Positions 3,905 through 51,417 of a DNA stretch of 64,000 bases are shown piece by piece. The translations under genes were made by a program, and so were the position numbers. The notes under the pieces are model-generated. The model was given only the letters and a program-made list of their open reading frames with translations, was not told where the DNA came from and ran no database searches. This stretch comes from an uncultured Clostridia bacterium (lineage in GTDB: Bacteria > Bacillota > Clostridia > Christensenellales > Borkfalkiaceae), in assembly GCA_944354265.1 (NCBI GenBank), contig CALVPX010000003.1:18815-82814 (forward strand), written 5' to 3'. The first letter of the stretch is position 1. Each line of letters starts with the position of its first letter.

Positions 3905-4986
3905 CTCTTTATTGCACCTCCTTCTATCCTGATCCTCTTTGCGTCCCTGCCTGCGAGCACGCGCTCGGCATGCGTGCAGGTGAGAATGGTCTGCAGCCCC
4001 TCGGTGCGGGCGACAAGTTTTTTGCGGCGGGCTAGGTCGAGCTCGGACAGCACGTCGTCGAGAATGAGCACGGGATATTCGCCGCTGACAGACTTGAAAA
4101 TTTCCACCTCCGCAAGCTTTATGGCGAGCGCCGCCGTGCGCGTCTGCCCCTGCGAGGCGTAAGTTTTGGCGTCCTCGCCGTCTACCTTTATGTCTATGTC
4201 GTCGCGGTGAGGGCCCGAGGCGGTGAAGCCCAAGCGGATATCGCGGTCGTAGTTGTTCTTAAGTTCGTCGTACAGCCGCTCCTTGAGTTCGCCCTCCTCC
4301 CCCTTGTACTTCTTTTCGGGGGAAATTTCCAACCTCTCCTTTCCGTCGGTCAGAAAGGAGTGGGCCTCTGCTGCAAGGGGAGCGAGCTGCGCGATGTAGT
4401 CCGCCCTGCGCTTGGCCACCGTGGCGGCGTAGGTGCACAGCTGTTCATCCCAAACGGGCAGGGTGTCGAATACCATCTCCAAATCCTTATTCTTCAACAG
4501 GTTGTTGCGCTGTTCCAAGATGCGGTTGTACCGCGCAAGCGCCGTGTAGTACGGGCGGGACAGCTGCGAGAGGGAGATGTTCAAAAACCTGCGACGCTCG
4601 TCCGGGCCGTCCTGAATGAGGCGCAGCTCCTGCGGGGAGAAGAACACGGCGTACAAGTTGCCCAACAGGTCGGCATTGCGGGTGATTTTGTTGCCGTTTA
4701 CCTTTATTTCGCGCCCGTTTTCGCGTATGGCGGCGCTCAGGGAAATTTCGCCGTAGCGGCCGAGGCACTCCGCAGAGATGCAGGCCTCGCCCGCGCCGTA
4801 CTTAATGAGCTGCCTGTCGCGGCGGGCGCGGGGGGAAGTGCCCGTGCACAGATAAAAGACGGCCTCCGCACAGTTGGTCTTGCCCTGAGCGTTGCGGCCG
4901 GTGAGCACGTTGAGCCCCTGACAGAAATCAAACTGTTCTTCGGCGTAGTTTCTGAAATTTTTTAACAACAAATTTTTTATGCGCAT
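3901..4986 (-). CDS. recF: DNA replication and repair protein RecF
   Basis: An SMC-like ATPase that loads RecA at gaps with RecO/RecR. Walker A is GRNAQGKT (residues 30-37), the signature-type region is FTASGPHRDDID, and Walker B/D-loop is PVLILDDVLSELD near the C terminus. The start chosen is ATG 4984-4986 (MRIKNLLLKNFRNY), the canonical RecF N terminus; an upstream TTG would add 11 residues that do not match the family. Length is 361 aa, normal. recF is divergent from dnaA with 112 nt between them, and dnaN, usually between dnaA and recF in Firmicutes, is absent from this window. Confidence 0.95.
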   Translation of the reverse strand: MRIKNLLLKNFRNYAEEQFDFCQGLNVLTGRNAQGKTNCAEAVFYLCTGTSPRARRDRQLIKYGAGEACISAECLGRYGEISLSAAIRENGREIKVNGNKITRNADLLGNLYAVFFSPQELRLIQDGPDERRRFLNISLSQLSRPYYTALARYNRILEQRNNLLKNKDLEMVFDTLPVWDEQLCTYAATVAKRRADYIAQLAPLAAEAHSFLTDGKERLEISPEKKYKGEEGELKERLYDELKNNYDRDIRLGFTASGPHRDDIDIKVDGEDAKTYASQGQTRTAALAIKLAEVEIFKSVSGEYPVLILDDVLSELDLARRKKLVARTEGLQTILTCTHAERVLAGRDAKRIRIEGGAIKR

Positions 4987-5026
4987 TTTTTGTGCCAAAA
5001 TACTGTACTTTGAAAGCAAATTGTAC

Positions 5027-5032
5027 TATAAT
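5027..5032 (+). promoter_or_regulatory. Putative -10 element of dnaA in the recF-dnaA divergent region
   Basis: TATAAT lies 66 nt upstream of the dnaA ATG. No convincing -35 was found at 16-18 bp. The 112-bp region (4987-5098) is AT-rich but contains no clear TTATCCACA-type DnaA-box cluster, so an origin here is not supported by boxes. Confidence 0.4.
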
Positions 5033-5098
5033 GTTAGAAAATTACTCTACTATTTTAGCACAAATCAATCAAAAACACAAAGGGAATTGACGACAATT

Positions 5099-6451
5099 AT
5101 GGCTGACAGCACGAACTTTGATTTTATTTACAACCCTATAAAGGAAAAGATGCGGGAGACGGTGAGTCATATATCCTACATCACCTATATAGAAAAGCTC
5201 AAGCCCGTCGACGTGGACGGGCGCTTTATCGTGCTGCAGACGCCCAACGAAAATTTTGCGCAGTACATCACGGGCACCCTTGCCGACAAGATGCGCGAGG
5301 CAATAATAAAGGCCGACGTGGGCGTTTCAGACTTCCGGCTCGTGGTTGAGGGCAGCAACGAGTACGCCTATAACCCGCCCGCGGCCGAGGACAACTACAC
5401 TCCCCCCTCCAACCTCGACAAGAAGTACACCTTCGATTCGTTCGTCGTGGGGAAGAACAACGAATTTGTCTACGCCGCGGCGCTCAACGTTGCCGAGGAC
5501 CCCGCCGGCACCTACAACCCGCTGTTCATATACGGCGGAACGGGCTTGGGCAAGACCCACCTCATGCAGGCGATAGCCAACAAGGTTTTGGCCGAAAAGC
5601 CCAACCTAAAGGTAATTTACGTCACCTGCGAGCAGTTTGTAAACGAAATTATCGACACGATGTTCACAAGCCGCGGACCCGACGCCCGCGACAGGGGCAA
5701 CAAGCTGAGGCAGCACTACCGCTCTGCCGACGTGCTGATAATTGACGACATTCAGTTCATAGCCAACAAAAAGGCCGTACAGGAGGAGTTCTTCCACACC
5801 TTCAACGAGCTTGTCTCCAAGGGCAAGCAGATTGTCATCTCCTCCGATCAGCCCCCCAAGGAGCTGACCGCCCTTGAAGAACGCTTAAGGACGCGCTTTT
5901 CGGGCGGACTCGTGTTCGACATTCTGCCCCCCAACTTTGAGACCAAGATTGCCATTTTAAAGCGCAAGGCCTTTGAAAAGAAGTGCATTGTGCCCGACGA
6001 AGTGCTGACCTTCCTTGCGCAGGATTCGGGCGACGACGTGAGGACGCTCGAGGGCAGGCTTACAAAGGTAATTTTTGCAAGCAAGCTGCACGAAGTGCCC
6101 ATAACCGTCACTCTTGCGGCGAGCGCATTGAACGAGGCCGTCTCAGAGGACGGCAAGGAGGAGATTACGCCCGACTCTATAATCAACGCGGTGTGCTCCT
6201 ACTACAACGTTACAAAGGGCGACCTTGTGGGCAAGTGCAAGAAAAAGGAGCTTGTTCAGCCGAGGCAGATATGCTGCTATTTGATGTGCGAGCTGTTGTC
6301 CCTCCCCCTTATGTCGATAGGCAAGGCGCTTGGCAACCGCAACCACACCACCATACTCTATTCGCGCAACAAGGTCGAGGAGATGTGTCAGGTAAACGAC
6401 CGCATAGCCAAGGACATAGACGACATTAAAAATATTGTACTCAAAAAATAA
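5099..6451 (+). CDS. dnaA: Chromosomal replication initiator DnaA
   Basis: AAA+ initiator that binds and melts oriC. Domain I is residues 1-84, followed by a short Pro-rich linker (about 85-108). The AAA+ core carries Walker A GGTGLGKT (146-153), Walker B LIIDDIQF (213-220) and sensor/arginine-finger ERLRTRFSGGL. The C-terminal DNA-binding domain contains LMSIGKALGNRNHTTILYS, the signature that reads the DnaA box. The frame is open upstream for 40 further codons, but MADSTNFDF matches the usual N terminus and fixes the start at 5099. The nearest Shine-Dalgarno-like AGGG is about 14 nt away, unusually far; a TTG at 5087 is an alternative. Length 450 aa is typical. Confidence 0.97.
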   Translation: MADSTNFDFIYNPIKEKMRETVSHISYITYIEKLKPVDVDGRFIVLQTPNENFAQYITGTLADKMREAIIKADVGVSDFRLVVEGSNEYAYNPPAAEDNYTPPSNLDKKYTFDSFVVGKNNEFVYAAALNVAEDPAGTYNPLFIYGGTGLGKTHLMQAIANKVLAEKPNLKVIYVTCEQFVNEIIDTMFTSRGPDARDRGNKLRQHYRSADVLIIDDIQFIANKKAVQEEFFHTFNELVSKGKQIVISSDQPPKELTALEERLRTRFSGGLVFDILPPNFETKIAILKRKAFEKKCIVPDEVLTFLAQDSGDDVRTLEGRLTKVIFASKLHEVPITVTLAASALNEAVSEDGKEEITPDSIINAVCSYYNVTKGDLVGKCKKKELVQPRQICCYLMCELLSLPLMSIGKALGNRNHTTILYSRNKVEEMCQVNDRIAKDIDDIKNIVLKK

Positions 6452-6470
6452 TTGCCTCTTTATAGTGCTC

Positions 6471-6506
6471 AAAAAATAATTGCCCGAATTGGGGCAATTA
6501 TTTTTT
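6471..6506 (+). terminator. Terminator-like perfect palindrome after dnaA
   Basis: A 15-bp perfect inverted repeat (AAAAAATAATTGCCC / its complement) with loop GAATTG ends in TTTTTT, usable in both directions. Its left arm duplicates the end of dnaA: CTCAAAAAATAATTGCC occurs at the dnaA stop codon and again about 28 nt later as part of the stem. Confidence 0.75.
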
Positions 6507-6650
6507 GAAGTGAAATACGCGGCTGCGCTTTCTCGGCGGCAGTAAGGAAAGCAGCCGCCTCGGTCACCGCATCGGGCGTCCTGTTGCCCTCGCTCACCTC
6601 GCAAGGCAAAACAGCACACTGTGCTGTTTTGAGAATACCTTGCTCGCCGT
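6507..6650. repeat. Remnant palindromic repeat sequence between dnaA and mnmG
   Basis: Contains an imperfect hairpin (CGGCTGCGCTTTCT...AGGAAAGCAGCCG, 6522-6562) and a block around CAAGGCAAAACAGCACACTG that also occurs inside the larger GTCATTTCGA elements at 8791-9010 and 47165-47364. No gene is visible here. Confidence 0.6.
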
Positions 6651-6874
6651 GTATGAAATAGCGCTATGCACTGTGAAATGCGCCAACAGCCCGATAACTC
6701 ATTACGACTATACAAATGGCGCGTGAAATGCAAGCAAGCTTGCGTTGTGGCAGACGATTATTATTTATAAATTTATCCCACAACGTGCAACGCAGTTGCA
6801 CATTTCACAAACGCGCAGCGTTTATTTCACGCACAAATTGCATTTCACGCAAGCCGCCACGGCTTGCATTTCAC
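6651..6874 (+). repeat. Composite hairpin-array element, full copy (forward)
   Basis: GTGAAAT-separated hairpins lead to an AT-rich core (GTTGTGGCAGACGATTA ... CCCACAAC), and ATTTCAC-separated hairpins follow. Right-arm stems are GTGCAAC/GTTGCAC, AAACG/GCGTTT, GCA/TGC and GCAAGCC/GGCTTGC. One left-arm hairpin (GCGCCA/TGGCGC) has a ~31-nt loop. The final ATTTCAC is only 5 nt before the mnmG ribosome-binding site. Confidence 0.85.
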
Positions 6875-6888
6875 CCATAAGGAATATC

Positions 6889-8751
6889 ATGACCACATTC
6901 ACCGAAGGAAATTTTGATATTGTTGTAGTCGGTGCCGGGCATGCGGGCTGCGAGGCGGCGCTTGCATGTGCGCGCACGGGACTTAAGACGGCGATGCTGA
7001 CTTTAAATTTGGACAGCATTGCCTTTATGGCGTGCAATCCCTCGATAGGGGGCACGGCCAAGGGACAGATTGTGCGCGAGATAGACGCCCTCGGCGGCGA
7101 GATGGGCATAAACGCCGACGAGACCGCCCTGCAGTTCAAGATGCTCAACGTGGGCAAGGGCGCGGCCGTGCAGAGCCTGCGCTGTCAGAGCGACAAGAAC
7201 GCCTACCACCGCCGCATGAAGTACGTTTTGGAGCACACTCAAAATTTGCGCATCGTGCAGGGCGAGGCCGCCCGCATTTTGGAGAAGGACGGCAGGGCCT
7301 GCGGCGTGGAGACGACCTACGGCGGCATCTTTGAGTGCCGCGCCGTAATACTAGCCACGGGCGTTTACCTCAATGCGCAGACCATTACGGGCGAGGTGGT
7401 GAAGGACAGCGGCCCCAACGGCTTCGCCCCCGCCACCGCGCTCACCAAAAACCTCATAGAATTGGGCTTCAATGTGCGCAGGTTCAAGACGGGCACGCCC
7501 GCGCGCATAGACTTCCGCACGATTGACACAGCCAAGTGCGCCGTTCAGGAGGGCGACACAACCGTGTACCCCTTCTCCTTCATGCACGACAGGGTGCCCG
7601 CCGAACAGACCGACTGCTACCTTACCTACACCAACAGGACGACCCACGATATAATACTAAGTAACCTCGACCGCTCCCCCCTTTACAACGGCACGATAGA
7701 CGGCACGGGGCCGAGGTACTGCCCCTCGATTGAGACCAAGGTGGTGCGCTTTGCCGACAAGGAGAGGCATCAGATATTCATCGAGCCCGAGGGCGCCGAC
7801 ACATTAGAGGCGTACATTCAGGGCATGTCCTCCTCCCTCCCCCACGACGTTCAGAGGGACATGTACCGTTCGGTTGCAGGCCTTGAGCACTGCGACATCA
7901 TGCGCTACGCCTATGCCATAGAGTACGACTGCATAGACACGCTTGATATATACCCCACCCTTGAGTTCAAAAAGGTTGAGGGCATTTACACGGCGGGGCA
8001 GATAAACGGCACCTCCGGCTACGAGGAGGCGGCGGCGCAGGGACTTATGGCGGGGATAAACGCCTCATTAAAGCTGCGCGGCAAGCCGCCCCTCATTTTA
8101 GGGCGGGACGAGGCGTATATAGGCGTGCTTATAGACGACCTTGTGACCAAGGGCACGGAGGAGCCCTACCGCATGATGACAAGCCGCGCCGAGCACAGAA
8201 TTGAACTGCGGCAGGACAACGCCGACTTCCGCCTGACGGACAAGGGCTACGCGTGCGGCCTCGTCACCGAGGAGAGATATGCACGCTATCTTGAGCGCAA
8301 GAAGAACTATCAAAGGGCGCTTAAAGAGCTTGAAGAGCGCCTGCCGGAAGGCGTTGCCGACGGCATACTTCTGTCACACAACCTGCCCGAGGGCGGCAGA
8401 CCCCTCTCCCCCGCAGAGCTCATAAAGCGCGGCGTTTGCTTGGACGACATATGCACCGCCTGCGGCGCATTGAGTTGGGCGGACAGGTCGGTTAAGGAGA
8501 GCGCCGAGATTGAAATTAAGTACGAAGGGTACTTAAAGAAGGGGCGCGAACAGATTGCAAAGGCCAAAAAGCTTGAGGACAGGCTGCTGCCCGACGACAT
8601 AGACTACTCCAAAATTGAAGGGCTGCGCCTTGAGGCGAGGGAAAAGCTCAACAAAGTGCGCCCCCGCTCGCTCGGTCAGGCGGGCAGAATTTCGGGCGTC
8701 AACCCTGCGGACATTTCGGTTTTAATGATTTACCTTGCGATAAACCACTGA
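6889..8751 (+). CDS. mnmG: tRNA uridine-34 carboxymethylaminomethyl-modifying enzyme MnmG (GidA)
   Basis: FAD- and NADH-dependent subunit that, with MnmE, installs cmnm5U34 in tRNAs reading two-fold codon boxes. The protein starts with the FAD fold VVVGAGHAGCEAA (residues 12-24) and continues with the diagnostic MACNPSIGGTAKG, LRCQSDKNAYHRRM, FKTGTPARID and TSRAEHRIELRQDNAD blocks; the C-terminal helical domain is complete. 620 aa is the normal length. ATG 6889 is preceded by AAGGA at 5 nt. The open frame extends 48 codons further upstream, but only through repeat DNA. It is often near the origin in Firmicutes, agreeing with dnaA next door; mnmE is not in this window. Confidence 0.97.
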   Translation: MTTFTEGNFDIVVVGAGHAGCEAALACARTGLKTAMLTLNLDSIAFMACNPSIGGTAKGQIVREIDALGGEMGINADETALQFKMLNVGKGAAVQSLRCQSDKNAYHRRMKYVLEHTQNLRIVQGEAARILEKDGRACGVETTYGGIFECRAVILATGVYLNAQTITGEVVKDSGPNGFAPATALTKNLIELGFNVRRFKTGTPARIDFRTIDTAKCAVQEGDTTVYPFSFMHDRVPAEQTDCYLTYTNRTTHDIILSNLDRSPLYNGTIDGTGPRYCPSIETKVVRFADKERHQIFIEPEGADTLEAYIQGMSSSLPHDVQRDMYRSVAGLEHCDIMRYAYAIEYDCIDTLDIYPTLEFKKVEGIYTAGQINGTSGYEEAAAQGLMAGINASLKLRGKPPLILGRDEAYIGVLIDDLVTKGTEEPYRMMTSRAEHRIELRQDNADFRLTDKGYACGLVTEERYARYLERKKNYQRALKELEERLPEGVADGILLSHNLPEGGRPLSPAELIKRGVCLDDICTACGALSWADRSVKESAEIEIKYEGYLKKGREQIAKAKKLEDRLLPDDIDYSKIEGLRLEAREKLNKVRPRSLGQAGRISGVNPADISVLMIYLAINH

Positions 8752-9202: not shown

Positions 9203-9316
9203 TCGCACCATGGGTGCAAACTTCACAAAAGCCGCACCTTGCATGGCTTTTATTTCACAACGCGCCGCTTTTCAAGCGGCGCGCTACTTCACACGCGGGC
9301 GTTGCACGCGTACTTC
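9203..9316 (+). repeat. Composite hairpin-array element, right arm only
   Basis: Four hairpins (stems GCACC/GGGTGC, AAAAGCC/GGCTTTT, GCGCCGC/GCGGCGC, ACGCG/CGCGT) separated by ACTTCAC or ATTTCAC. The left arm is missing; TIR and GTCATTTCGA elements occupy its place upstream. Confidence 0.75.
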
Positions 9317-14243: not shown

Positions 14244-14497
14244 GTGAAATGCAACTTGAAAGTTGCATGAAATGCGCATTGATATGCGCGTGAAATGAAT
14301 ACCTGAAGGTATTCGTGAAATGCACGGCAATGCCGTGCGTTGCGGCATTGAATTTCTGCGCCTTTGGCGCATAACTTGATACCTTAACGCATACGTAGTA
14401 TGCATTTCACGCCGCCTTATTATAGAGCCGATTGAAATGACATGTTATGCGGCATTTCACGGCGTAGCCATTTCACGCGCGCAATGCGCGCATTTAA
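14244..14497 (-). repeat. Composite hairpin-array element, full copy (reverse)
   Basis: Four perfect hairpins with GTGAAAT separators (stems GCAACT/AGTTGC, GCGCAT/ATGCGC, GAATACC/GGTATTC, GCACGGC/GCCGTGC) run to a core GTTGCGGCA...GGCGCATAAC. Then four more follow with ATTTCAC separators (GCATAC/GTATGC, GCCG/CGGC with a ~33-nt loop, GGC/GCC, GCGCGC/GCGCGC). The long-loop hairpin is in the right arm, so this copy is inverted relative to 6651, 26058 and 51178. Confidence 0.85.
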
Positions 14498-14498
14498 C

Positions 14499-15683
14499 TT
14501 ACTTTTTTAAAAGTCCCTTAATTCTTTCCACGGCCTCTTTGGTGACTTCCTCGCTGCCGAAGGCGGTGAGGCGGAAGAAGCCCTCGCCGTTGGCGCCGAA
14601 GCCCGCACCGGGCGTGCCGACGACCTGAATATTTTCGAGCAGATAGTCGAAGAACTGCCAACTGTCCATGCCGTTCGGGCACTTTAGCCAAATATAGGGC
14701 GAGTTTTTGCCGCCCGTGTACCATATGCCGAGTTCGTCCATGCAGTCGGCGATTATCTTGGCGTTACGCTGATAGTATGCGATATTCTGCTTGATCTGCT
14801 GCTGTCCTTCGGGGGTGAACACAGCGGCAGCGCCGCGCTGAACAATGTAGGGCACGCCGTTGAACTTGGTGGTCTGACGCCTCAGCCACATTTTGTTGGC
14901 GGACATGCCGTCGCGTTCAAGGGCAAAGGGCACCACGGTGTAGCCGCAGCGCGTACCCGTGAAGCCCGCCGTCTTGGAGAAGGAGCAGAACTCTATTGCG
15001 CACGTCTTGGCGCCCTTCACCTGAAAGATTGAGCGGGCGAGATCATCCTCGGTTATGAAGCACTCATAGGCCGCGTCGTAGAGGATTACGGCGTTCTTTG
15101 CGTTGGCGTAGTCCACCCACTCCTTGAGCTGTGCCTTTGTGTATGCCGCGCCCGTGGGATTGTTGGGCGAGCAGAGATAGATTATGTCGGCGTCGACAGA
15201 GTAGTCGGGCATGGGCAGAAAGCCGTTCTGCGCCGTGGCGTTCATGTAGATGACCTTGCGGCCCGCCATGGTGTTGGTGTCGACATATACGGGATATACG
15301 GGGTCGGGGACGAGCACGACGTTGTCCTGCGCGAAGATATCAAGAATGTTGCCGAGGTCGGACTTGGCGCCGTCGGAGATGAAAATTTCGTCGGCTTCAA
15401 GCTGCACCCCGTTGGAGAAATAGTAGCCCTGAATGGACTGCTTTAAGAAGTCGTAGCCCTGCTCGGGGCCGTAGCCGCGGAATGTCTCCTTTTTCGACAT
15501 GTCGTCGACGCCCTTATGGAGCGCGTCGATGACCGCGGGCGCGAGGGGCAAAGTTACGTCGCCTATGCCGAGGCGGAGAATGCTTTTATCGGGATTGGCC
15601 GCCGAATATGCGGCGACCTTTTTGGCTATTGTGGAAAAGAGATAGCTCTGCGCTATGTCGTTGAAATGTGCGTTGAAATGCAT
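14499..15683 (-). CDS. dapL: LL-diaminopimelate aminotransferase
   Basis: PLP enzyme converting tetrahydrodipicolinate to LL-diaminopimelate in one step, bypassing the acylated DapD/E pathway. The 394-aa sequence has LRLGIGDVTLPLAPAVIDA, the fold-type I SPNNPTGAAY (about 178-187), DAAYECF and the PLP-lysine motif FCSFSKTAGFTGTRCGY. The DapL-specific FRGYGPEQGYDFL and an N terminus matching family members (MHFNAHFNDIAQSYLF) settle subfamily and start. The ATG has AAGG 9 nt upstream. It lies 16 nt downstream of pyrG, so the two are co-transcribed; dapF follows the same strategy 2.2 kb away. Confidence 0.95.
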   Translation of the reverse strand: MHFNAHFNDIAQSYLFSTIAKKVAAYSAANPDKSILRLGIGDVTLPLAPAVIDALHKGVDDMSKKETFRGYGPEQGYDFLKQSIQGYYFSNGVQLEADEIFISDGAKSDLGNILDIFAQDNVVLVPDPVYPVYVDTNTMAGRKVIYMNATAQNGFLPMPDYSVDADIIYLCSPNNPTGAAYTKAQLKEWVDYANAKNAVILYDAAYECFITEDDLARSIFQVKGAKTCAIEFCSFSKTAGFTGTRCGYTVVPFALERDGMSANKMWLRRQTTKFNGVPYIVQRGAAAVFTPEGQQQIKQNIAYYQRNAKIIADCMDELGIWYTGGKNSPYIWLKCPNGMDSWQFFDYLLENIQVVGTPGAGFGANGEGFFRLTAFGSEEVTKEAVERIKGLLKK

Positions 15684-17701: not shown

Positions 17702-17828
17702 CCACAACGCAACCTGAAAGGTTGCAATTCACGCGCCCGAGAAATTTGGTGAGTACAATGTGAAGAGTGCGGGGCGCAATTCACAAACGCGCAGCGTTTA
17801 ATTCACGCACACGCAGTGTGCATTTCAC
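17702..17828 (-). repeat. Composite hairpin-array element, half copy (reverse)
   Basis: Hairpins GCAACC/GGTTGC, GCGCCC/GGGCGC (33-nt loop), AAACG/GCGTTT and GCACAC/GTGTGC, separated by AATTCAC or ATTTCAC. Directly upstream are CACAAC core remnants and a GCGCCGCAGGCGCAT junction hairpin. Confidence 0.8.
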
Positions 17829-17878
17829 TGTTAACGGCGAGTTGGTGCATGTCCTCTAATGCACAACTCGCGTTAACC
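17829..17878 (-). repeat. Hairpin overlapping the dapF stop codon
   Basis: A ~22-bp imperfect stem (GTTAACG...GAGTTGTGCAT / ATGCACCAACTCGCCGTTAAC) whose left end includes the dapF TAA. The same hairpin closes the 185-bp elements at 23037 and 31210. It has no T-run and may act as a 3' stabiliser or terminator. Confidence 0.65.
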
Positions 17879-26057: not shown

Positions 26058-26310
26058 GTGAAATACACGACTACGCAGTGTGTGAAATAGCGGCATATAC
26101 GCCGCTGTGAAATGCGCCATGTGTAATAGAGAATAAAAAAGCTATGCCCATGGCGCGTGAAATGCAACATGAATGTTGCGTTGTGGCAGACGATTATTAT
26201 TTTAAATAATTTTTACCATAACGTGCAACGCAGTTGCACATTTCACAAACACAACGTGTTTATTTCACGCACGAAGTGCATTTCACGCAGAGCAACGCTC
26301 TGCATTTCAC
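26058..26310 (+). repeat. Composite hairpin-array element, full copy (forward)
   Basis: Left arm: ACAC/GTGT, AGCGGC/GCCGCT, GCGCCAT/ATGGCGC (long loop), GCAACAT/ATGTTGC, with GTGAAAT separators. Core: GTTGTGGCAGACGATTA ... ACCATAAC. Right arm: GTGCAAC/GTTGCAC, AAACAC/GTGTTT, GCAC/GTGC, GCAGAGC/GCTCTGC, with ATTTCAC. The last separator supplies the TGA stop of the clc gene. Confidence 0.88.
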
Positions 26311-27929
26311 TCATTGCGCTGCTTTCCCACTATCGTATACAGATAGTCGAGCACCTCCTGCTCGTCCACGGCGGTGCACTCGAAGTCGAGCACCTGTCCC
26401 GCCTGCAGCTTTGTGCCGCCCGAGGGAATTATTGAGGAGCCGTCCTCCCCCCTCACTGCCACGACGAGGCCGTTTGACGGCCAAATGATTTTGTTGATCT
26501 TTCCGCCGTCGGCAAGCGAACCGGGGCGGACGGCGACGGAGACGCGCACCGTCTTTTCCCGCCCGGCGAAGCCTTCGTCGCGGATGAAGGCGTGCAGGTT
26601 ATTTTCGTACCCCGGCTCGAGGCGGCAGACTTCGGCGACGAGCGAGGCTATTACCACGCCCAAGAGGGCGGGCAGGGGATTGGCAAATTGCCCCGTAAGT
26701 TCAAACACCATGAACAGCCCCGTTATGGGCGCGCGCACGAAGGTGGTGAAGAACACCGACATGCAGATGATTATTATATAGTCGCAGTATGCGCCGTCCA
26801 TTCCCGCCTGCACAAACAGCGCCGACAGCAGGGCGCCCAACCCTGCGCCGACGGCGAGCATGGGTATGAACACGCCGCAGGGCACGCCGCACGCCATGTA
26901 CAGCGTCATTAAAATGTATCTTAATACGACGATTATGAGAAGAGAGACCAAAAAGCCCGCGCCGAGGACGGAGAGCCCTTGAAAATTGCCCGTGCCGCCC
27001 GTGGATATGGCGTGGATGAAGTTGTGCCCGCCGCCCATGGCGTATACGGTGATGAGGCCGAACGCGCCCGACAGCACAAAGGGTATTGTAAATTTGCCCA
27101 CGCCCTTAAAGAAGGTAATTTTTTTGAAAAGTTTTTTGGCGCCCTGCACCGAATAGTAGAATGCGACAGCGGCAAGGGCAACTATGAGCGCGGCCAACGC
27201 GACGAAGAGGTAGCCGTCCCATCCGAGCGGCGTGAATACAAAACCTTCGAAGGCCGAACCTATTTCAAAGCCGAACGCCGCCCTTATGCCCGTGCGCACG
27301 GCGAGCGCCGTAATTACCGACACGGACGCGCTGACGAACACGACGGGCGAGAAGGATTTGAAGGCCTCCTCAAGCGCGAAGATCATGCCCGTGACGGGGG
27401 CGTTGAAGGCGACGGCAAAGCCCGCGGAGGCGCCGCCGGCTATCTGCAGGCGGCGTATCATGTAGGGACGGCGGAGTATGCGCCCCGTTCCCTCGCCCAC
27501 GCAGCCGCCCATCTCTATGGAGGGGCCCTCGCTGCCGGCCGCAAGCCCTAAGAACACGCAGGCGAGCGAGGCGGCAAACATTGAGCACAGGGTGACGTAC
27601 CAATTGAAGGGAAACTTGCCGCGGCAGGCGCCCTCTATCTGCGGTATGCCGCTGCCGCGTATCATGGGCACAAACTTTACGAGCGTGCCTATTGCCAACG
27701 CGCCCGCAAACAACCCTACGAACAGCAGGGGAATAAACGCGGGATTTTGGCGAAGCAAATCGTAGAGCTGACGGGAGTATTGCTCGCCGTAGCTCGTGCA
27801 GATGGTGTAAAAAGTTATGACTACGCCCGCGAACAGCCCTGTGATAAACGAAACAAAGACTACGTTTATGCCGTAAAATTTGAACGCCAACCATGCGCGG
27901 GACAACTTTTTCTTATCTATGCCCTTCAC
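26307..27929 (-). CDS. CLC-family chloride channel/transporter with C-terminal TrkA-C domain
   Basis: An integral membrane Cl- channel or Cl-/H+ antiporter. The three CLC selectivity motifs are GSGIPQIEG, the gating-glutamate loop GSEGPSIEMGG and GVPCGVFIPM; many hydrophobic helices follow. The last ~75 residues (KTVRVSVAVRPGSLADG ... IIPSGGTKLQAGQVLDF) form a TrkA-C/RCK-C ligand-binding fold. The start is uncertain: I prefer GTG 27927-27929, which has GAGG 6 nt upstream, giving 540 aa and a 17-nt overlap with the ATP-grasp gene; ATGs at 27941, 27944 or 27959 are alternatives. The stop TGA lies within the ATTTCAC end of a hairpin-array element. Confidence 0.9.
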   Translation of the reverse strand: MKGIDKKKLSRAWLAFKFYGINVVFVSFITGLFAGVVITFYTICTSYGEQYSRQLYDLLRQNPAFIPLLFVGLFAGALAIGTLVKFVPMIRGSGIPQIEGACRGKFPFNWYVTLCSMFAASLACVFLGLAAGSEGPSIEMGGCVGEGTGRILRRPYMIRRLQIAGGASAGFAVAFNAPVTGMIFALEEAFKSFSPVVFVSASVSVITALAVRTGIRAAFGFEIGSAFEGFVFTPLGWDGYLFVALAALIVALAAVAFYYSVQGAKKLFKKITFFKGVGKFTIPFVLSGAFGLITVYAMGGGHNFIHAISTGGTGNFQGLSVLGAGFLVSLLIIVVLRYILMTLYMACGVPCGVFIPMLAVGAGLGALLSALFVQAGMDGAYCDYIIIICMSVFFTTFVRAPITGLFMVFELTGQFANPLPALLGVVIASLVAEVCRLEPGYENNLHAFIRDEGFAGREKTVRVSVAVRPGSLADGGKINKIIWPSNGLVVAVRGEDGSSIIPSGGTKLQAGQVLDFECTAVDEQEVLDYLYTIVGKQRNE

Positions 27930-28806
27930 CGTACACCTCATCATACATGTATTGCGCATAAATTTTTGCCACGTTTACGCCCGTGACACGCTCTATGCCG
28001 CCGAAAAATGCGTTGGAGTTGACCTCGCAGACGAGGTAGCCCTCCTCGTCGAACAGCACATCTATGCCGCAGTAGTCGGGGCATATGTGGCGGGCAACCC
28101 TTTGGCAGAGCGCTGTCAACTGTCCGTCGGCAACAAAGGGAGAGCCCGTGCCGCCCAGCTCTATGTTGGAGCGGAAATCACAGTCCGATTGCCTGAGCAT
28201 GGCGGCGACGACCTTGCCGCCGACGGTTATGATGCGCACGTCCCTCCCCGCGCTGTTTGCAACATAGCGCTCGAACAGGTGGGGCGAGCACTGCAATTTT
28301 TGGGCAATTTGCTCAAGCTGCGCACGGTTTTCGGCCTTGAACACACCCGAACCGAGCGAACCGTAGCTTGCCTTTACAATTACGGGATAGCCGAGGCGGC
28401 GCTCGACCTCGTCGAGGGCGCTCTCTTTGACCCTCTCCCCGGGGGTGTAGCACAGCAGCCCCGGCAGGGTGAGCGGCATGGGTATGCCGCAGTCTGCAAG
28501 CTTAATTGAGGTGAGCATCTTGTCGTCGCAGTCCTCTATGGCGGCGGCACTGTTGAAGAGGCGCATGCCGCACTTTTCAAGCATGCGGGCGACATACTTG
28601 TCCTTATCGAGGTACACGCAGAAGTCGTAATTTTCAGCCGAACACGACAGCGTACCCCCCTCCTCCACCGCGCAGGGAAAAAAGTCGTTGGGGCGGACAT
28701 CGGCAGTCACCCCTAAGCGGGCGAACTCCTCTTTAAGCCGCGCAGACTGATTCAAAGCGCTTTTAAGCCGCGAATAGGCATTGACGATAATTAAACACCT
28801 TTTCAT
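27913..28806 (-). CDS. RimK/LysX-type ATP-grasp ligase
   Basis: 297 aa. The ATP-grasp core has the lysine-bearing GYPVIVKASYGSLGSGVFKAEN (about 140-161), the adenine-contact LFERYVANSAGRDVRIITVGG and the metal-binding YLVCEVNSNAFFGGIERVTG near the C terminus. The closest look is to alpha-L-glutamate/amino-group ligases (RimK, LysX, MptN). These attach an amino acid to a carboxylate, but no carrier protein or pathway partner is adjacent, so the substrate is unknown. A TATAAT lies 8 nt before the ATG and no Shine-Dalgarno is present. It overlaps the CLC gene, so the two may be co-transcribed. Confidence 0.85.
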   Translation of the reverse strand: MKRCLIIVNAYSRLKSALNQSARLKEEFARLGVTADVRPNDFFPCAVEEGGTLSCSAENYDFCVYLDKDKYVARMLEKCGMRLFNSAAAIEDCDDKMLTSIKLADCGIPMPLTLPGLLCYTPGERVKESALDEVERRLGYPVIVKASYGSLGSGVFKAENRAQLEQIAQKLQCSPHLFERYVANSAGRDVRIITVGGKVVAAMLRQSDCDFRSNIELGGTGSPFVADGQLTALCQRVARHICPDYCGIDVLFDEEGYLVCEVNSNAFFGGIERVTGVNVAKIYAQYMYDEVYGEGHR

Positions 28807-37709: not shown

Positions 37710-37749
37710 GGTAAAATTTTATGGGGTTAGTATTTAGGGGGTAGGGAAG

Positions 37750-37975
37750 GTGAAATACACAGCTTGCGCAGTGTGTGAAGTAGTGCTGCGCACTGTGAAG
37801 TAAAAACTGCGTTTTTGTGAAGTTTGCCTTTTTTGAAAAAAGGCAAGTTGTGGTAAAAATTATTTATACCGCCACTTGCACCGATGATGCAAACTTCACT
37901 GCGCATTTATTGCGCTGCTTCACTCATTGCCACAGGCAATGTACTTCACTTTGCGGTTATGCCGCAAAACTTCAC
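37750..37975 (+). repeat. Composite hairpin-array element, full copy with GTGAAGT spacers
   Basis: Left stems ACAC/GTGT, AGTGC/GCACT, AAAAA/TTTTT, TTGCCTTTTTT/AAAAAAGGCAA; core GTTGTGGTAAAAATTATTT ... ACCGCCAC; right stems TTGCA/TGCAA, TGCGC/GCGCTG, ATTGCC/GGCAAT, TTTGCGG/CCGCAAA. Spacers are GTGAAGT on the left and ACTTCAC on the right, a matched change on both arms. Confidence 0.88.
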
Positions 37976-37986
37976 TAACTCCTCCC

Positions 37987-39180
37987 CTACTTTCTTCTTC
38001 TGAGTATGTCGCCTTCGTGCAGAACGTAGGGGCAGTTGATTGCGTAGTGCTCCTGCACGCGCTTGCAGTCGTCCACGGGAGTGCCGTCAGGGAGGAGTGC
38101 GCTTTCAACCTTAAAGCTCTTGCCGAAGTTGCCCGAAGGGGACAGCACCTCCAAAGTGTCGCCCACCTTAAAGCGGCCGCGCATTTCAACCACGGCAGTG
38201 CCCTCGCCGCCTGAAAGGACGTTTGCAATATAGTCGCAGTCGCCCTTGGTCTGACTGTCGGTATAGTTGACCGTTTTGTCGTTTGAACCCAACATATATG
38301 CCGTTGTATAGTCGCGGTGGGCGGCGGTCAACAGCTCGCGCTCGACGACATTGTTGAACCCGCCGTCTATGCAGCGGCGGTAGGCGTTGATGACGGTGGC
38401 GAGGTAATATTCGCTCTTCATTCTGCCCTCAATCTTGAAGGAGCACACGCCCGCTTGAGCCAATTCCTTTAAGTGGGCGGACATGTTCAAGTCCTTTGAA
38501 TTGAAGATATATGTGCCCCTTTCGTCCTCCTCCACGTTCATCCATCCGCTCTCTGCGCCCGCCTCGTTCTTGCGAACCTGCCAATTCCAACGGCAGGCCT
38601 GAACGCACTCGCCGCGGTTGGACTCCCTGCCGGCGAGGTAGTTTGAAAGTAGGCACCTGCCCGAATAGGAGATGCACATTGCGCCGTGGACGAAGGCTTC
38701 GAGCTCTATTTGGGGCACGAAGGCGTGAATTTGGGCAATTTCTTCAAGCGACAGTTCGCGCGCGAGTATGACCCTGCCCGCGCCCTGCTCCTGCCAGAAC
38801 TTTACTGCGTACTTATTTGTTACGTTTGCCTGCGTGGAGATGTGCACGGTTAGATTTGGCGCCGCCTTTTTGCAGGCGTACACCACGCCGGGGTCGGAGA
38901 TGATTGCCGCGTCCGCACCCGCCCCATACAGAAAGGCAAAGTAATCCTCAAGCGCGGAAAGGTCGGCATTTTTTGCAAAGATATTGACGGTGACATATAT
39001 CTTTTTGCCGAGGGAGTGGGCGTAGCTGATTGCGCTTTTAAGCTGTTCGCCGTCGAAATTGTCGGCAAAGGAGCGCAGCGAAAAGGCCTTGCCCCCCACA
39101 TATGCCGCGTCCGCGCCGAAGTAGAGCGCGGTATTGAGTTTTGCACGGTTGCCCGCAGGGGCTAAAAGTTCAACTTTCAT
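37987..39180 (-). CDS. trhP: U32-family tRNA/rRNA hydroxylation protein (TrhP-like)
   Basis: 397-aa member of the 'peptidase U32' family, now known to be iron-sulfur prephenate-dependent RNA hydroxylation proteins rather than peptidases. It starts MKVELLAPAGNRAKLNTALYFGADAAYVGG and bears the U32 signature ELEAFVHGAMCISYSGRCLL with further cysteines in NRGECVQACRW, the probable Fe-S ligands. The next gene upstream encodes a TrmR-type methyltransferase, the same pairing as yrrM-yrrN/O in B. subtilis, where TrhP makes 5-hydroxyuridine at tRNA position 34 and TrmR methylates it. Assignment to TrhP rather than RlhA rests on that neighbour. Confidence 0.85.
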   Translation of the reverse strand: MKVELLAPAGNRAKLNTALYFGADAAYVGGKAFSLRSFADNFDGEQLKSAISYAHSLGKKIYVTVNIFAKNADLSALEDYFAFLYGAGADAAIISDPGVVYACKKAAPNLTVHISTQANVTNKYAVKFWQEQGAGRVILARELSLEEIAQIHAFVPQIELEAFVHGAMCISYSGRCLLSNYLAGRESNRGECVQACRWNWQVRKNEAGAESGWMNVEEDERGTYIFNSKDLNMSAHLKELAQAGVCSFKIEGRMKSEYYLATVINAYRRCIDGGFNNVVERELLTAAHRDYTTAYMLGSNDKTVNYTDSQTKGDCDYIANVLSGGEGTAVVEMRGRFKVGDTLEVLSPSGNFGKSFKVESALLPDGTPVDDCKRVQEHYAINCPYVLHEGDILRRRK

Positions 39181-46826: not shown

Positions 46827-46979
46827 AGTGAAGTACGCAGCTTCGCCGCGTGTGAAGTAGTGCTGAGCACTGTGAAGTAACAGCTGCGCTTTTGTGAAGT
46901 TTTTCCTCCCGCTGTCATCTTGAACACAGCCGAAAGATCCGGTGCGGAACGCACCTTAGCGGGAGGAAAAGTTATGGTA
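46827..46979 (+). repeat. Composite hairpin-array element, left arm with an insertion in its innermost hairpin
   Basis: Left-arm hairpins ACGC/GCGT, AGTGC/GCACT, an imperfect AACAGC stem, and TTTTTCCTCCCGCT/AGCGGGAGGAAAA, with GTGAAGT spacers. The last hairpin's loop contains GTCATCTTGAACACAGCCG...AAAGATC, a GTCATCTTGAG-type repeat fragment. The core GTTATGGTAAA follows. Confidence 0.8.
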
Positions 46980-48174: not shown

Positions 48175-48213
48175 CAATGGTAGCGACGGACAAAAGGGGA
48201 AAAATATTAAATC

Positions 48214-48402
48214 TTACCATAACTTGGCTTATCCTTTTGCCGACGGGGTAGATACCCCGTCAGATACATTCGGCTACGCTCAGCATGACAAAAGGATAAG
48301 CCAATCATAACGTTGCACACATGGTGTGCAACTCTAAACTGTAAACGCGCTGCGCCACAGCGCGGCGCTCATAACTTGCGGCAGTGCTTTTACACTGCCG
48401 CA
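48214..48402 (+). repeat. Composite hairpin-array element, right arm with inserted repeat
   Basis: Core end CTTACCATAAC, then GGCTTATCCTTTTG (48226-48239) / CAAAAGGATAAGCC (48289-48302) enclosing an ATACATTCGGCTACG...CAGCATGAC fragment. Then GTTGCACAC/GTGTGCAAC, a GCGC-rich stem and GCGGCAGTG/CACTGCCGC follow with TCATAAC-type spacers. Confidence 0.75.
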
Positions 48403-51177: not shown

Positions 51178-51417
51178 GCAAGACGAGTCTTGCGTGAAAT
51201 GCACTCCGTGCGTGAAATGCGCCAAACGCCCGATATGCAAATCAATCTACGCCAATGGCGCGTGAAATGCAACATAAATGTTGCGTTGAGGCAGACGATA
51301 ATTATTTTATATTTTTTTACCTCAACGCGCGGCATGGGCGCGCATTTCACAGACGCAAGGCGTCTATTTCACAACGCTTTAGCGGTATTTCACACACGGC
51401 ATCGCCGTGTATTTCAC
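51178..51417 (+). repeat. Composite hairpin-array element, full copy (forward)
   Basis: Left: GCAAGAC/GTCTTGC, GCAC/GTGC, GCGCCA/TGGCGC (long loop), GCAACAT/ATGTTGC with GTGAAAT; core GTTGAGGCAGACGATAA ... ACCTCAAC; right: GCGCGGC/GGGCGCGC, AGACGC/GCGTCT, an imperfect AACGC stem, ACACGGC/GCCGTGT with ATTTCAC. The core's outer pair changed together from GTTGTGG/CCACAAC to GTTGAGG/CCTCAAC. Confidence 0.88.

Follow-up and report, generated by a model that had tools for sequence, protein, structure and literature searches.

Mobile arrays of hairpin-spaced heptamers in a Clostridia genome and their link to S23/IVP (PF05635) genes in other genomes

The window analysed here is a stretch of 64,000 nucleotides on contig C3 of an uncultured Clostridia bacterium, whose assembly comprises 1,745,531 bases in 55 contigs and is estimated to be 86% complete. 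Scattered along the window are copies of a composite repeat, in which hairpins are separated by short heptamers (the spacers) and a central core divides two inverted arms (Table 1). The copies beginning at 6510, 14244, 26058, 37750 and 51178 are two-armed. The initial annotation had given the last four of these starts as they stand and had placed the first at 6651. There, the first spacer lies at 6510, directly 3' of a terminator-like hairpin (6471-6506), and a different repeat (about 6530-6646) breaks up the first hairpin. The dnaA gene directly precedes this copy, and the replication origin may be near. The partial copies at 9203 and 17702 and the left arm at 46828 were likewise recovered; the core stem of the latter is, by eye, broken by several hundred bases of nested repeats. 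A further partial copy, claimed at 48214, has no spacer: reading of 48190-48330 revealed zero spacers and a core-stem-like remnant only, and it is therefore not counted as an array copy. Several copies of the source genome are interrupted by other repeats in their hairpin loops or core. The nested repeat TTCTCGGCGGCAGTAAGGA..GAATACCTTGCTCG sits inside array hairpins in the window (about 6530-6646) and at loci L295 (about 2096-2212) and L304 (about 1321-1437), and further repeats (GTCATCTTGAGC.., GTCATTTCGACC..) occupy hairpin loops or the core in the window from 46907 on and at L297 and L300.

Table 1. Array copies and their parts in the window.
Feature	Coordinates	Strand	Description and basis
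Copy, A subfamily	6510..6874	+	Between dnaA (4979-6451) and mnmG (6889-8751); sequence reading and gene names
Partial copy, right arm	9203..9292		Three spacers; pattern scan and sequence reading
Copy, A subfamily	14244..14498	-	Reversed, as judged by its long hairpin; sequence reading
Degenerate partial copy, right arm	17702..17830		Sequence reading
Copy, A subfamily	26058..26310	+	Pattern scan and sequence reading
Arm 1 of the 26058-26310 copy	26058..26179	+	Four GTGAAAT spacers, four hairpins, long loop in the third
Core of the 26058-26310 copy	26180..26222	+	Stem GTTGTGG/CCATAAC enclosing an AT-rich loop
Arm 2 of the 26058-26310 copy	26223..26310	+	Four ATTTCAC spacers, four hairpins
Total inserted DNA at the empty-site locus	37710..37989		Comparison with 19 sister loci; ends checked
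Copy, B subfamily (GTGAAGT)	37750..37975		Pattern scan and sequence reading
Partial copy, left arm, B subfamily	46828..46900		Pattern scan and sequence reading
Copy, A subfamily	51178..51417	+	9 bp off a stop codon

The ordered hairpin array with its inverted second arm, as first described for this DNA, is real: the pattern GTGAART-N8-30-GTGAART matches the window 23 times, against a mean of 0.06 and a largest value of 2 in 100 shuffles. The whole genome contains 109 matches (51+58) and 3 of the reversed pattern (1+2), and 27 further stretches of it beyond the window were read for array structure. The A subfamily combines GTGAAAT spacers with a core of the type GTTGTGG..CCACAAC and one long-loop hairpin, 42-44 nt in all (GCGCCA..TGGCGC or ACCGCC..GGCGGT). 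The B subfamily combines GTGAAGT spacers with a core of the type GTTATGGTAAA... Together, the long-loop hairpin of the A subfamily and the asymmetric core give the element a direction. The number of hairpins per arm differs between copies. That the spacers of a copy vary together holds for the all-A and all-G subfamilies but not throughout, since mixed copies exist, such as the one at 37750 with one GTGAAAT amid GTGAAGT. The claimed strict invariance fails both in this copy and at 17702-17830, where three spacers read AATTCAC and one ATTTCAC.

We examined the stems in 44 arms with at least three spacers, using the 110 of their 114 inter-spacer stretches that are at least 11 nt long. At the outer four positions of these 110 hairpins, 90.7% of the pairs are Watson-Crick and 1.8% G-T, as opposed to 33.7% and 12.0% when the 5' and 3' halves were taken from different hairpins. 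Pairing so far above the crossed-half control indicates that the letters drift and the pairing is kept, in agreement with the initial annotation, which had noted stems that differ among copies yet remain complementary. We also considered that the two arms pair with one another through GTGAAAT/ATTTCAC, forming a ladder of four-way junctions; the spacers within a copy mostly change together. Rfam 15 returned no match above its gathering score across the window.

A U32 peptidase gene and an EPSP synthase gene flank the copy at 37750-37975. We detected the U32 gene in 21 of 21 genomes drawn from the genus, fetched 20 of the loci (one being that of the source genome itself) and inspected 420 bases behind each gene. 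None of the 19 other loci carries an array in these 420 bases. In eight of the 19, the U32 stop and the start of an EPSP-synthase-like frame overlap as ATGA; other sister loci have between a few and some hundred bases separating the two frames, and at two a different gene follows U32 (all by eye). The insert in the source genome spans from the TAG stop at 37989 down to 37710, that is, a block of 280 bp that comprises the complete element. TAGGGG-type sequence is located toward both of its ends, inverted, around the array, and no target-site duplication was seen by eye. Because the genes adjoin in sister species and none of the 19 loci contains the array, this copy is a mobile insertion. Two genomes, G035 and G013, contain similar units, roughly 350-400 bp in length, whose flanks are unlike. 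Pattern matches are concentrated in few of the 151 family genomes scanned (G000, 109; G032, 76; G033, 61; G035, 41; G073 and G057, 22 each; G013, 18; G078, 17), and among the other 18 genus members drawn only G073 stands out, the remainder having 0 to 5 matches. The arrays are thus mobile, and the earlier suggestion of a mobile palindromic unit is borne out by the empty site, the alike units in unlike flanks and the patchy distribution.

Where the arrays reside became apparent from a site survey of 33 arrays of the source genome (raw counts). Twenty-nine of the 33 have a gene end on one or both sides, 20 are no more than 90 bp away from a stop codon, and in three the stop codon is located inside the outermost spacer. 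In the window, the last spacer of the 26058-26310 copy (26304-26310) includes the TGA stop of the CLC channel gene 26307-27959(-), and the 14244-14498 copy reaches up to the stop codon of gene 14499-15683(-). In relatives, the array is often preceded by a tRNA gene plus terminator-like hairpin (by eye). In G035, G013 and G057, units appear to split intrinsic terminators: the flanks of nine units are complementary beyond permuted pairs with p 0.00015, a value that flatters because two of the nine boundaries, those of the L319 units, were chosen after the flanks had been seen. The signal is clear in four of these units (L312, L313 and two in L319), absent in L316 and weak in the rest. An earlier automatic flank comparison in the same three genomes with wide windows gave no excess (5/10 matched versus 49/90 crossed pairs at threshold), and no split terminators were found around the copies of the source genome with the outermost spacer as boundary (15 two-armed elements, p 0.61). 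Orthologous sister loci contain no arrays in 13 of 13 cases (seven radC loci and six of a flavoprotein gene, 260-330 bases each). In three of the six flavoprotein loci the reading frame runs on, and four sister loci (L406, L407, L411 and L412) display, by eye, an intact terminator-like hairpin.

A transposase recognising GTGAAAT, which the initial annotation had proposed to look for, was not found. Rather, the recurrent neighbour of the arrays in other genomes is a PF05635 gene. When we compared the reading frames near arrays, the largest cluster, from nine loci and 22-54 bp away from the arrays, proved to be PF05635, the S23 or 23S rRNA intervening-sequence protein (IVP), which adjoins arrays in other gut bacteria and in phage contigs. 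We searched 32 of the 151 genomes, hand-picked as nine array-rich and 23 array-poor ones; PF05635 scored above the cut-off in 5/9 and 0/23, respectively (Fisher p 0.0006). In array-poor G128, a sub-cut-off match lies next to a reverse transcriptase (contig C4, 19143-20540) and is probably the Avd of a diversity-generating retroelement. A scan of the collection with the GTGAAAT pattern alone yielded at least 118 stretches, and 12 of the 118 listed contain a PF05635-like reading frame. Ten of these 12 have an array spacer at a distance of 0-73 bp from the matched domain, and four frames of the 12 are incomplete (66-80 residues). One of the stretches, L028, has plain repeats and no hairpins at its PF05635 gene, as have L327 and L331, where only plain short repeats occur. 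In the Akkermansia MAG L014, the PF05635 gene is 2,878 bp from the GTGAAAT array and is itself flanked on both sides by ATATAAC/GTTATAT hairpin arrays (5650-6700), so the element type is also present in a Verrucomicrobiota bin. Among at least 120 stretches listed from viral contigs, one PF05635 frame was found; L133, L182, L212 and L250 show the array, and two fecal phage records have the same layout of arrays and PF05635. The PF05635 genes of G013, G032, G033 and G057 are, by eye, flanked by arrays of other heptamers (ATGATG, GATGAAATC, GATGAAGTC, TGATAT, GTGATAT, GTGAATTG and ATGTAAT). These observations link the arrays to PF05635 in other genomes.

In the source genome itself (86% complete), neither Pfam nor our own profile built from 14 proteins detected PF05635, and a remote homologue was rejected on these two negative results. 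The gene was not found in array-rich G073, G035 and G012 either. Its non-detection in these four array-rich genomes may reflect loss after amplification, missing parts of the assemblies or a different mover. The only solved homologue that we found, 2rld, has five chains and covers part of the L329 protein. PMC4990558 describes the Xanthomonas S23p as a homopentamer of four-helix bundles, assigns PF05635 proteins no established function, and has heptamers, GACAGAT, preceding the S23p frame in the Coxiella intervening sequence (IVS). In a paper on CRISPR-linked genes, '23S rRNA IVP' is listed among the abbreviations of a figure legend (PMC10910872); heptamer arrays mistaken for CRISPRs could be the reason for that entry.

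The association with heptamers extends beyond the arrays of this family. PF05635 occurs in 88/347 genomes of the order and 111/391 of the class (E 0.001), from which we took the best-scoring locus, one per genome, so the loci are not a random sample. Because de novo detection of spacers (exact 7-mers plus 4-bp stems) was too strict, we counted 7-mers instead: a 7-mer is present at least five times in the 420+420 flanking bases of 42/71 PF05635 loci whose flanks were long enough, versus 6/67 distal windows. Self-matches at distance 7 occur at 37/81 PF05635 loci (among L327-L401 and L447-L453, and including seven plasmid or phage loci without controls) versus 3/60 distal windows; at distance 14 the counts are 34/81 and 3/60, and at distance 21 they are 37/81 and 8/60. 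By the same measure, 14/81 loci have no repeat period at all. Head-to-tail heptamers are also found at the PF05635 genes of three Nostoc plasmids and one Treponema plasmid. There are thus two forms, heptamers head to tail and heptamers spaced by hairpins, the latter being the one in the window. In two of the Nostoc plasmids (L450 and L452), the neighbourhood of PF05635 and its heptamer arrays includes XisI or XisH genes as well as an integrase or transposase. On a tree of 32 PF05635 proteins, the heptamer class changes 8 times, compared with a shuffle mean of 18.0 and none of 200 shuffles with as few; the classes were listed by hand after the flanks had been seen, and the 32 were drawn from 83 kept proteins by omitting 51 that had at most two copies of a listed heptamer upstream. 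Heptamer and protein thus vary jointly, which may come from pure co-inheritance as one block.

The elements beside PF05635 share an architecture. Their usual order is a stretch S1, three to four hairpins and heptamers, its partner S1', three to four hairpins and reverse heptamers, and the start codon. S1' is made up of the ten bases that immediately precede the first reverse heptamer, and its partner lies 90-99 bases upstream. The two pair at 9/10 positions or more in 17/21 elements, versus 17/366 crossed pairs between heptamer types; the 21 include two elements without a PF05635 gene alongside (L316 and L319). Among the exceptions, L362 pairs at 8/10 positions, and L340 forms, by eye, a shorter-range stem that fell outside the distances scanned. 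Since the 17 paired elements contain 11 different S1' sequences, a long-range stem is preserved while its letters change, and the structural constraint first suggested for the window's stems is upheld for this stem as well. The subfamilies of the source genome have the core stem instead of S1.

The composition of the stems bears on whether they are maintained as RNA or DNA. In transcript orientation, 119 distinct hairpins of S1-type elements contain 625 Watson-Crick, 3 G-U, 6 A-C and 5 other pairs, and the acceptor and T stems of 58 tRNAs contain 626 Watson-Crick, 61 G-U and 4 A-C pairs; G-U is rarer in the S1-type stems (p 8e-5). The stems of 99 terminator-like hairpins (895 Watson-Crick, 20 G-U, 14 A-C) were not separated from the S1-type stems (p 0.26). 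In the source genome, stems read in spacer orientation have 1 G-U and 11 A-C pairs, the opposite strand being the reverse, and in its eight direction-assigned copies the mismatches are too few to decide. We therefore held back strict Watson-Crick pairing as proof of the DNA level, since terminator-like hairpins do not differ clearly and the mismatches are strand-skewed; upkeep of the stems at the DNA level is our preference.

We favor the reading that the arrays are the non-autonomous form of a family of selfish elements linked to S23/IVP, whose ring protein reads the heptamers, and put its probability at roughly 55%. The cis part of such an element would be the heptamers (here GTGAAAT or GTGAAGT), with hairpins keeping them apart, arranged as two inverted arms on either side of a central core; in other genomes, a cis part of this kind stands directly upstream of the gene for the S23/IVP protein, a four-helix bundle. 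A five-fold ring and repeated heptamers together suggest one heptamer per subunit. An S23/IVP ring would thus bind an arm in this register, the hairpins would fold away the DNA lying between the heptamers, and two rings would draw the inverted arms together. The complex would then be moved by a strand-transfer activity of the host or one acting in trans, with targets beside or inside hairpins at gene ends, such as terminators and the DNA that follows tRNA genes. That the ring binds heptamers, that the arms pair and which enzyme moves the element are what we infer here; no catalytic protein was identified.

Other explanations account for parts of these data. The arrays could be a structured regulatory RNA family, that is leader or 3' UTR RNAs through which the protein regulates its own messenger, much like TRAP, which regulates via triplet repeats. 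The position of both arms between a tRNA gene with its terminator-like hairpin and the PF05635 start, seen by eye at a number of loci, would suit such RNAs, as would the pairing of S1 with S1', part of which could also pair locally in a switch-like manner. We nevertheless consider this unlikely, given a copy that is inserted in the source genome and absent in sisters, the many copies without a PF05635 gene and the rarity of G-U (3/639 stem pairs versus the 61 in tRNA stems, the terminator yardstick with its p of 0.26 being weaker). Quite improbable in our judgment is an origin without dedicated mobility, in which replication slippage and quasi-palindrome correction grow the repeats and PF05635 genes tolerate or attract them. 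Template switching would indeed keep stems Watson-Crick while their letters drift; against this origin stand a complete block of 280 bp (37710-37989) that sisters lack, common units in unlike flanks in G035 and G013, and the recurrence of S1/S1' and of the order of parts with different heptamers.

Known enzymes were weighed as movers as well. If a hairpin with its 5' heptamer were one REP and the arms were inverted REPs, a RAYT or IS200-type Y1 transposase would move them as it moves REP/BIME palindromes, which PMC3733652 likewise describes as having a constant unpaired tag, inverted clusters and positions near gene ends. The source genome does have one Y1_Tnp gene; its locus, however, has no GTGAART spacer in the 3.4 kb covered, the array tag differs from both GTAG and CGTC, and the stems are not conserved. 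Moreover, Y1_Tnp was found in 4/9 array-rich versus 11/23 array-poor genomes, being undetected in array-rich G073, G032, G013, G057 and G012. With no correlation with the arrays and an arrayless Y1 locus, we rejected Y1/RAYT transposases as movers and regard a REP-like origin as very unlikely. Retro-mobilisation, in which array RNA would be copied by a reverse transcriptase that the S23 protein recruits, draws on the resemblance of PF05635 to Avd of diversity-generating retroelements, noted in PMC10053308. RVT_1 was found in 3/9 array-rich genomes, the source genome included by a weak match (E 1.6e-7), versus 5/23 array-poor ones; the six array-rich genomes in which it was not detected include G032, G013 and G035, which are 95-96% complete. 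This lack of correlation led us to reject reverse transcriptase as the mover, and the whole scenario appears highly improbable.

The S23/IVP-linked family that we favor resembles several known systems in part. The IVS of 23S rRNA in Coxiella and Leptospira, as described in PMC4990558, is a small element, called selfish, with an S23p-type protein and sits within a stable RNA gene, in one of its helices. It has heptamer repeats at the S23 frame, and relatives of the window's element have spaced heptamers there. The window's arrays differ in that their heptamers are hairpin-spaced in two inverted arms and in that the copies lie between or behind protein genes, with no rRNA in the window according to Rfam; the arrays of the source genome also stand without the PF05635 frame that relatives have beside the element. 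The arrays resemble REP, BIME and REPIN sequences in having palindromes that carry a constant tag and form inverted clusters, in reaching high copy number in patchy genomes and in lying near gene ends, but they have free stem letters, a heptamer tag repeated several times per arm and no link to Y1. Like MITEs and the BOX elements of pneumococcus, they are non-autonomous, intergenic, a few hundred bases long and inverted, and the empty site, with 0/19 sister loci carrying the insert 37710-37989, is MITE-like; we found no partner transposase and saw no target-site duplication, and TAGGGG-type inverted ends occur at one insert. STRR sequences are short tandemly repeated repetitive heptamers of heterocystous cyanobacteria. 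They have been reported in an RNase P RNA gene, as stated by the title of a reference in PMC2858038. Likened by description, they share the heptamer units, and heptamer arrays flank the PF05635 genes of three Nostoc plasmids, but STRR units have no hairpins between them. CRISPRs differ in that the array repeats are only 7 nt long and the stretches between them self-complementary. A full-text search of the open-licence literature returned no account of heptamer arrays spaced by hairpins, nor any that treats heptamers as a general hallmark of PF05635.

More tentatively, the arrays may belong to an unrecognised, widespread class of mobile elements, a possibility that we hold below even odds. In such a class, a five-membered S23/IVP ring would read heptamers, perhaps one per subunit and either head to tail or hairpin-spaced, and would carry arrays into hairpin loops, possibly those of terminators, tRNA ends and rRNA helices, whereby PF05635 would gain a function. 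If true, this would bring together the rRNA intervening sequences, the heptamer repeats of cyanobacteria and the hairpin arrays found in gut Clostridia. PF05635, often annotated as ribosomal, gains a candidate cis partner that varies with it, beyond one phylum. If the ring reads heptamers, the mechanism becomes open to direct testing, for which short DNA and a protein of some 115 residues suffice, and it would explain both why short repeats so often stand beside PF05635 genes and how elements landing at terminators can reshape gene ends.
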